Origin: Clostridia bacterium
GTDB taxonomy: Bacteria > Bacillota > Clostridia > Oscillospirales > CAG-272
DNA length: 37,522 bases
Direction: 5' to 3'
NCBI GenBank assembly: GCA_017504625.1
Contig: JAFVQU010000024.1
Span: 1-37,522 of the forward strand
The translations under genes were made by a program, and so were the position numbers. Positions 34,475 to 35,723 of this stretch are shown piece after piece. The stretch's first letter is position 1, and the number at the start of each line of letters is the position of its first letter. Below the pieces are notes generated by a model, which was not told where the DNA came from, did no database searches, and saw nothing but the letters and a program-made list of their open reading frames with translations.

Positions 34475-34507
34475 AGACAAGCAAATTTCTGAAGGGAGGT
34501 GCCCATC

Positions 34508-34975
34508 TTGGCTGAAAAAAAAGGCGGAAATAAAATTATCGCACAGAATAAAAAGGCTTATCACGACTATTTTGTTGATGAAAAGTACGAGGCGGGCATC
34601 GAGCTTTTCGGCACGGAGGTCAAGAGCCTTCGCGCCGGAAACGTCAACCTTAAGGATTCCTATTGTGACATAAAGGACGGCGAGATCTTCGTCGTTGGTA
34701 TGCACGTAAGTCCCTATGAGCACGGAAATATCTTTAACCGCGATCCGCTTCGCAAGCGCAAGCTTCTGATGCACAAGCGCGAGATAATGAAGCTCCACGG
34801 ACTCGTAGCGCAAAAGGGTATGGCGCTTGTTCCCCTCTCACTCTATTTCTCGGGCTCGCGCGTTAAGGTCGAGGTCGGTCTTTGTCGAGGCAAAAAGCTC
34901 TACGACAAGCGAGATACTATCGCCAAGCACGACGCAGACCGTGAGATTGAAAGAAGAATGAAGGATCGAGGATAA
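34508..34975 (+). CDS. smpB: SsrA-binding protein SmpB
   Basis: The product is a 155-residue partner of tmRNA in trans-translation, delivering it to stalled ribosomes. [20 protein letters not shown] and [18 protein letters not shown] are typical of the beta-barrel; the basic C-terminal tail ([20 protein letters not shown]) enters the mRNA channel. The start is a TTG at 34508 (MAEKKGGNK), 8 nt behind AGGGAGG; a GTG at 34499 lies inside the ribosome binding site. ssrA follows 127 bp downstream, separated by a hairpin array. Confidence 0.97.
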
Positions 34976-35100
34976 CTTCAAGCCACAGGCTTGAAATATC
35001 ACTGTGCAAAGCACAATATCACTTCAAATCGCCCCCGCGATTTGAAATATAACTGCGCCAACGGCGCAATTTCACTGCGTAGTCGCTTTGGCGACGCGCT
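34976..35100 (+). repeat. Tandem array of five hairpins joined by a conserved 7-nt linker
   Basis: Starting directly at the smpB stop codon: TTCAAGCC-ACA-GGCTTGAA (34977-34995), linker ATATCAC, TGTGC-AAA-GCACA (35003-35015), linker ATATCAC, TTCAAATCGC-CCCC-GCGATTTGAA (35023-35046), linker ATATAAC, TGCGCC-AAC-GGCGCA (35054-35068), linker ATTTCAC, then an imperfect hairpin GTCGC-TTTG-GCGAC with flanking GCG/CGC (35076-35099). Stems differ completely but pair perfectly; each of the first four opens with T and closes with A. It fills the whole smpB-ssrA space. Confidence 0.9.
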
Positions 35101-35102
35101 AT

Positions 35103-35473
35103 GGGGGTGTACCGGTTTCGACGGGGATTTTGAGGTATGATAAGCGGGTAGAGACGGGCAAACTCTGAAAAGGCCCAAACTTAAAATTAAACGCTAACGA
35201 TAGAAACGTTGCAATGGCTGCCTAAGGGCAGTGCCGTGGCATAATCGCCACCCGTTCCCCCGAGGAGTATCGCGGCCTCGGGCTGAGCGTCAAGTAAGCG
35301 GTGAACGTGCATCGGTGTCTCGCCATCGAACCGATCACGCAAAAGATGGCTACCCGAGAATGAAGTCTGTTTGTTGACGTCGTTCAAGGGGAAACATAAA
35401 TAACAAACTTCACCCGGAGAAAGTCATATCAAGAGGTTTTCGGACAGGGGTTCGATTCCCCTCGGGTCCACCA
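35103..35473 (+). ncRNA. ssrA: Transfer-messenger RNA (tmRNA)
   Basis: The 371-nt tmRNA rescues stalled ribosomes with SmpB. The 5' tRNA-like part GGGGGTGTACCGGTTTCGAC is diagnostic; the T-arm AGGGG-TTCGATT-CCCCT and CCA end lie at 35446-35473. The tag frame starts at GCT (35193) and ends at TAA (35223-35225), giving ANDRNVAMAA, a typical hydrophobic degradation tag. The G3-U70 alanine identity pair is kept, but the acceptor halves GGGGGTG and CGGGTCC leave two G-G mismatches in the middle. No promoter is visible directly upstream, so it is probably cut from the smpB transcript. Confidence 0.97.
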
Positions 35474-35699: not shown

Positions 35700-35723
35700 C
35701 GATTCCCCTCGGGTCCACCAAAA
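35700..35723 (+). repeat. Direct repeat copy 2: duplicate of the ssrA 3' end
   Basis: The 24 bp are identical to 35453-35476 and include the CCA end. There is no tRNA or tmRNA body upstream, so it is a detached fragment, best explained as an att scar of a lost or decayed integrative element. Confidence 0.8.

Follow-up and report, generated by a model that had tools for sequence, protein, structure and literature searches.

The Gut-1 motif was classed as a non-coding RNA by Weinberg et al. (2010; PMC2864571), and the listing in the excerpted part of that paper gives it from the human gut only. It consists of three hairpins joined by GUGAAAU-type linkers, and it has so far stood as an sRNA without a known role. 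A separate line of work concerns the S23p proteins of Pfam family PF05635 and the intervening sequences (IVS) of 23S rRNA. In Coxiella, tandem heptamers have been reported before the S23p ORF of the IVS (PMC4990558, in excerpt), and PF05635 resembles Avd of diversity-generating retroelements, the accessory protein of a mobile system, according to passages of PMC10053308. Gut-1, PF05635 and the IVS are each already known; in the open-licence literature, we found no description that unites the three, or that describes a bipartite array, a target at tRNA ends or a clustering of the proteins by linker.

Among intergenic hairpins, REP and REPIN sequences with their TnpA-REP partner (PMC8266576, in excerpt) share with the arrays considered here a short guide motif, inverted pairs and strand-specific features. 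As excerpted, however, REPs have conserved stems, a GTAG guide and a Y1 transposase partner, whereas the arrays described below have variable stems and a 7-nt linker and are associated with S23p. CRISPR arrays combine constant repeats with unique spacers and a cas locus; in the window array the 7-nt linkers are short and the variable parts are palindromes. BOX elements, Correia elements and MITEs are likewise modular, form hairpins and disperse non-autonomously. We know of none among them with constant 7-nt linkers and variable stems, or with a tRNA 3'-end target.

The locus that led to this comparison lies in a stretch of 37,522 nt from a Clostridia bacterium (contig JAFVQU010000024.1, positions 1 to 37,522), here called the window. 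Between smpB and ssrA this window carries a hairpin array that we read, with a probability of roughly 0.58, as the gene-less right half of a larger unit, a remnant from a family of mobile elements of gut Clostridia that combine an S23p gene with a hairpin array. Its parts are as follows.

34499..34975, + strand: smpB, flanking gene (Pfam PF01668, E 6.5e-64)
34977..34995, + strand: hairpin 1, TTCAAGCC-ACA-GGCTTGAA, stem of 8 bp
34991..35077, - strand: match to Rfam RF01706 (Gut-1), 50.3 bits, model positions 1-77
34996..35002, + strand: linker 1, ATATCAC
35003..35015, + strand: hairpin 2, TGTGC-AAA-GCACA, stem of 5 bp
35016..35022, + strand: linker 2, ATATCAC
35023..35046, + strand: hairpin 3, TTCAAATCGC-CCCC-GCGATTTGAA, stem of 10 bp
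35047..35053, + strand: linker 3, ATATAAC
35054..35068, + strand: hairpin 4, TGCGCC-AAC-GGCGCA, stem of 6 bp
35069..35075, + strand: linker 4, ATTTCAC
35076..35101, + strand: hairpin 5, imperfect and terminal, with a perfect core at 35082-35095
35103..35473, + strand: ssrA (tmRNA), flanking gene (Rfam RF00023)

The gap between the two genes thus holds five hairpins (34977-35101), four with perfect stems that each begin with T and end with A, and an imperfect fifth. When perfect stems of at least 5 bp were chained over gaps of 4-13 nt across the whole window, the array was the one chain of five, and two unrelated chains of three occurred elsewhere. When the whole window was shuffled 20 times with its dinucleotides preserved, 11 runs of three, one of four and none of five resulted, a comparison in which the near-identity of the linkers is not yet counted. 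Folding z-scores against shuffles were -6.7 for RNA and -7.8 for DNA on either strand. The array with near-constant linkers reported in a preliminary description of this DNA is real. The same description had known of no named family of this form, which must be corrected, as Rfam RF01706 matches at 50.3 bits, barely above its cut-off of 50.

Gut-1 matches extend beyond this locus. The window's genome has 10, of which 5 exceed the cut-off and several form opposed pairs, and matches occur in 10/12 genomes of the genus. In the class, they were found at E<=1e-6 in 52/391 genomes, representing 41/223 genera, while only one of 14 control genomes (E. coli) matched, below the cut-off. A search for arrays of the same form in related genomes had been set beforehand as a test, and such arrays do occur. 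The opposed pairs belong to a common plan, in which left hairpins with GTGAAAT- or GTGATAT-type linkers are followed by right hairpins with the reverse-complement linkers. The Gut-1 model covers just one half of this element: the modelled sRNA is one part of a bipartite element that is dispersed and occurs with several linker classes. Others with the same plan are GTGAAGTT/AACTTCAC, GATGATAT/ATATCATC, GCTAAAT/ATTTAGC and ATGTAAT/ATTACAT, and some classes are overlooked by the Rfam model. One array with unrelated linkers of the ATGTAAT/ATTACAT type lies directly behind a tRNA-Leu gene (L122, 740-960). The window array belongs to the ATATCAC class, its four linkers are of the right type only, and the smpB-ssrA gap contains no left half.

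Full units are placed with respect to stable RNA genes. The best-defined type begins with a terminator T-run followed by AAYGAAAT, and the first locus set contained 53 distinct units of it. In 34 of them a tRNA or tmRNA gene, of 13 kinds in this set, has its 3' end 24-38 nt before the T-run, at the start of the terminator hairpin, and CCA directly precedes the A-run in 44/53. The expected share of such placement is about 0.06%, estimated from 4 tRNAs in 400 kb taken elsewhere in two genomes of this kind. Named genomes were also scanned with a pattern, which gave a second set of at least 115 stretches; once 13 entries already present in the first set were taken out, there were 106 new rows, of which 99 were assessable and 85 carried two or more left linkers. 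Among the 80 of 115 titles listed, most are Clostridia assemblies, many from animal guts. Among the matches listed, 52 of the 85 units stand directly behind a tRNA or tmRNA gene (16 kinds), and the CCA is present in 61.

Several units end about 35 nt past the last linker in a block such as GCATCTAAACCATTCGGCTCTTCCA, and at two loci (L165 and L143) a second unit starts immediately after the CCA of this right-end block, so that the units stand in tandem. The block was not seen in many other units of the two sets. A coding function of the right end, with its conserved GCATCTAAACC... block, was considered and rejected: at the loci examined every frame has stops upstream, and the block is therefore taken as non-coding. 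At the other end, a terminator directly precedes the type-A arrays. Since tRNA genes that lack a unit can have similar terminators, this terminator may be native, or it may be part of the unit. In G149 a unit follows a tRNA-Met gene whose near-identical counterpart in the congener G099 is not directly followed by one, a comparison that is based on the tRNA match and not on synteny. The G099 gene has a plain terminator after its CCA, of the same type as that following the right end of a tRNA-Glu unit in G149, and two ATTTCAT words, which may be a remnant, some 100-150 nt further on. Units in different families also occupy the same tRNA clusters.

The elements are dispersed. Six gene-less copies of 228-229 nt in G003 are 97.8-99.1% identical, with sharp ends and unrelated flanks; their ends are unlike the tRNA type, they have no CCA target, and no target-site duplication is visible among the six. 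Identity between units of different families is as high as 95.7%, and 16 of 40 units have their closest relative within their own genome (5.2 on average and at most 15 after shuffling).

The association with a gene was recognized from the right ends of the units. A co-directional ORF starts within 260 nt of the right end in 88/139 units, and 18 of these ORFs form one family, PF05635, the 23S rRNA-intervening-sequence protein (four examples tested); at E<=0.001 the PDB contains a single sequence relative of the partner protein, 2rld, which has five chains. At one locus (L120), a right-end-like block without its CCA lies behind the PF05635 gene, so that the gene can lie inside the unit. Among the array-biased loci, 29 of 32 PF05635-family ORFs have an upstream array, and a 400-kb control contains no such ORF. 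Because this locus set is biased toward arrays, a second analysis started from the PF05635 protein. Thirty PF05635 loci scored by eye comprised 19 with an upstream array or half-array, among them both loci of the window's genome, and 11 without. For genes picked by PF05635 alone and compared with shuffles and control ORFs, a significantly repeated 7-mer occurs in the 300 nt upstream of 29/37, against 6/120 control ORFs (p 1e-18, with loci treated as independent), and some of these 29 have plain repeats with no hairpin arrays. The 37 genes include two fecal "phage" scaffolds with arrays and five plasmid genes from cyanobacteria, Treponema and Monoglobus, four of which were significant. On Treponema and cyanobacterial plasmids, plain tandem repeats with the 7-mers AAGGTGA, AATTCGT, CGACTTC and AATTTGG precede the PF05635 genes (L401, L402, L403 and L405).

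Among 42 chosen genomes, PF05635 is present in 22/22 that are Gut-1-positive, with the G172 match falling short of the Pfam cut-off, and in 4/20 that are negative; with the rest of the genus added, the proportions are 23/26 and 5/21 (p 1.3e-5), in genomes that are hand-chosen and phylogenetically uneven. Three genomes with arrays gave no PF05635 match (G002, G006 and G008, in assemblies 68-88% complete), and five have a PF05635 gene and no Gut-1 match (G010, G011, G046, G153 and G381).

The proteins also cluster by linker. A linker class was given to 34 of 50 PF05635 proteins, with 14 having none and two lying at contig ends. For 30 of the 34, the nearest protein relative at <97% identity belongs to the same linker class, against a mean of 12.7 and a maximum of 23 in 5000 shuffles, with the relatedness of the genomes only partly removed. 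A single genome, G370, contains proteins of two classes, ATTTCAC (L123) and ATTTAGC (L375 and L398). The preliminary description had raised the idea of a protein that recognizes the linker, and this sequence-based clustering strengthens it, suggesting that the PF05635 proteins may bind their class of linker.

The window array itself has no PF05635 gene among the window's ORFs, and the next gene is ssrA; it lies 5' of that gene rather than directly behind a tRNA or tmRNA 3' end. Phage records contained no match to it. The two PF05635 matches of the genome are on contigs other than the window's, and both genes directly follow a full array whose linkers, CTTCA and ATATCAT, are overlooked by Rfam. 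Because these genes stand behind other linkers, the window array is probably an orphan right half, yet ATATCAT is only one base from ATATCAC.

The mechanism that we consider most likely is as follows. The full unit runs from the CCA at which a tRNA or tmRNA gene ends, through the terminator hairpin, the left hairpins, the right hairpins and the PF05635 gene, to the right-end block. The 7-nt linkers would act as iterons, repeated binding sites for a cognate S23p pentamer, while the hairpins would hold them on single-stranded or cruciform DNA. The complex of S23p, linkers and hairpins would then let the element reach new stable-RNA genes, whose 3' ends would serve as safe landing sites. Many copies lack the gene and persist as bare arrays. 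A wider proposal, to which we give somewhat under even odds, is that of a two-component mobile system, in which S23p/PF05635 pentamers recognize class-specific 7-nt iterons between DNA hairpins and the elements move to tRNA, tmRNA and, as the IVS, 23S rRNA genes. To our knowledge, PF05635 has no catalytic activity, and for this reason PF05635 alone may not move anything.

The likeness to the 23S rRNA IVS extends, in the excerpts of the published accounts, to the same S23p/PF05635 family, placement at stable-RNA genes, a palindromic structure and heptamers before the gene comparable to the 7-nt linkers. The IVS differs in lying inside 23S rRNA, from which RNase III cuts it out, whereas the present units lie behind tRNA and tmRNA genes and consist of multi-hairpin arrays. 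The window array lies between smpB and ssrA rather than in 23S rRNA, and an S23p gene accompanies only its relatives. If the two-component reading is true, PF05635 proteins would gain an assigned function, and the "Gut-1 RNA" would be one half of the DNA recognition array of PF05635. Since S23p genes are linked to class-specific 7-nt repeats in front of them, the roles of protein and repeat alike are open to direct testing with purified protein and short oligonucleotides, and a small element sitting directly behind tRNA CCA ends with its own terminator would represent an unusual safe-site strategy in bacteria.

The stems themselves are informative about the form in which the array acts. Of the 53 units, 36 with lengths of 165-195 nt were aligned for covariation. 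Pairing is kept in 98.3% of the pair cells of the three aligned hairpins, and 161 cells have changed on both sides (0/500 shuffles as high). Five measures were used in all, and two were without excess over shuffles, namely the number of pairs with a double change (47/500 as high) and the pair types (500/500 as high). A long-range helix has 57 double-change cells (0/500 shuffles as high), and because it uses the 5' strand of the first hairpin, the two structures are mutually exclusive. Independently of the alignment, 356/494 segments between linkers form a filling hairpin, compared with 17.5 on shuffling. The contention that structure is kept while stem sequence changes thus holds across the 36 relatives. 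That the stem sequence is free is correct in part: stems differ within an array, but they are modules shared between copies and between species. RNAalifold also pairs one left with one right linker in a fishbone arrangement, in which one column pair shows 12 double changes; this is suggestive only, and solo halves cannot use such pairing.

The loops show a strand preference. Among unique triloops read on the ATTTCAC strand, GNA accounts for 77/136 and TNC for 2/136, compared with 24/244 and 16/244 among triloop hairpins of control stretches, and the closing pair is C-G in 336/391 across all triloop contexts. The 82 unique tetraloops comprise 28 GNRA, 20 GNYA and 34 others, with no clean GNRA signal. 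In the window array the loops are ACA, AAA, CCCC and AAC, none of them GNA. The linker sets the direction in which the GNA/GNNA preference is read, so that the favoured strand switches between left and right halves. Loops of the c(GNA)g and c(GNNA)g types are very stable in DNA. The 1580 pairs include 17 G.T and 9 A.C, counts that do not differ significantly (p 0.17), and the rarity of G.U is judged against its usual share of RNA helices. Together, the covarying stems, the rare G.U pairs and the GNA/GNNA loops on one strand that flip with the half suggest that stem structure is under selection and probably works as folded DNA rather than RNA.

The smpB-ssrA site was located in 11 genomes of the genus; in a further one, G006, it gave no match. 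Arrays are present there in eight (G000, which is the window's genome, G001, in degenerate form, G002, G003, G004, G005, G007 and G009) and absent in three (G008, G010 and G011), and given these three relatives, the window copy looks dispensable at this site. Stem modules are common to several species, with varying number and order. The stem of hairpin 1 recurs at the matching site in G007 with a GCAA loop, that of hairpin 2 at the matching site in G002 and G003 with TAA and GAA loops, and those of hairpins 3 and 4 in G004, G005, G007 and G009, in the case of hairpin 4 at smpB-ssrA; the end hairpin in G004 is related to hairpin 5 of the window. This sharing of modules could reflect host use of the array at smpB-ssrA.

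Such use is central to the best surviving alternative, that Gut-1 is a structured RNA, a transcribed array that would serve, for instance, RNA processing or stability between smpB and ssrA. Its Rfam entry is of the sRNA gene type, in keeping with the class assignment excerpted from Weinberg et al. (2010; PMC2864571). In G010 and G011, where the array is absent, smpB and ssrA are only about 10 nt apart, which makes co-transcription likely and the array probably part of a smpB-ssrA transcript, and its presence at 8/11 located sites, the covariation and the RNA folding score of -6.7 all fit this explanation. The G.U pairs are nevertheless rare and not clearly above A.C, no transcript has the favoured loops throughout because the preference flips with the half, the type-A arrays come after a terminator, and three genomes do without the array at this site. 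We therefore regard a structured RNA as unlikely. Of the earlier suggestion of selection on RNA structure, the selection stands, whereas the RNA level gives way to DNA as the likelier one, on the evidence of the few G.U pairs, the flipping loops and the terminator before type-A arrays.

Less likely still are host-kept DNA insulators or supercoil buffers between strong RNA genes and the next promoter, with S23p as a passenger or regulator. BIMEs have a supercoil-buffer role, arrays stand directly behind tRNA terminators, several units lie, by eye, just before promoter-like sequence, and the occupation of the same tRNA clusters in different families would fit a host function. This explanation sits poorly with the patchy presence (52/391 class genomes), the near-identical dispersed copies, the high identity between families and the tie between linker class and protein.

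Mobilisation of a REP/BIME-like element by a RAYT-type Y1 (HUH) transposase was tried as an alternative and rejected as improbable: the hairpins, inverted halves, intergenic and multicopy character and lack of a visible target duplication would suit it, and Y1 genes occur in 14/22 positive against 4/20 negative genomes (p 0.006), but this correlation is weak, Y1 is absent from several array-rich genomes (array carriers G000, G001, G005, G007, G009, G099, G338 and G370 have no Y1 match), the 30 Y1 loci have no full array nearby (linker-like word pairs occur in three, L236, L239 and L250), and the linkers are not GTAG. In the window's genome there are no Y1 (RAYT) transposase matches, and its array has no GTAG guide with a conserved stem. 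One Y1-type transposase ORF in G003 (contig C24, L234) contains in-frame internal repeats (TASHDTPPCQTVGTDVPGGPLND).

Some further observations concern the surroundings of ssrA. In G004 there are two smpB-ssrA loci (L081 on C120 and L090 on C95) with unlike arrays, perhaps because the assembly mixes two strains. Upstream of the ssrA array, G004, G005 and G009 share another conserved block, which has a hairpin of its own (CTGATTTTTCGGC..GCCGAAAAAGTCAG..CTACTGAGAT), and G007 has it in altered form (L080, L081, L083, L085 and L090). ARAGORN finds no tmRNA at 35103-35473, where Rfam scores 138 bits, and it does detect the tmRNA adjoining the arrays of G002 and G003. The 3' end of the window's tmRNA (GATTCCCCTCGGGTCCACCA...) is exactly repeated about 230 nt downstream, at 35700-35723, which resembles the attachment-site duplication of an integrated element, and 35-nt stretches at 89% identity occur elsewhere in G001, G004, G005 and G009.
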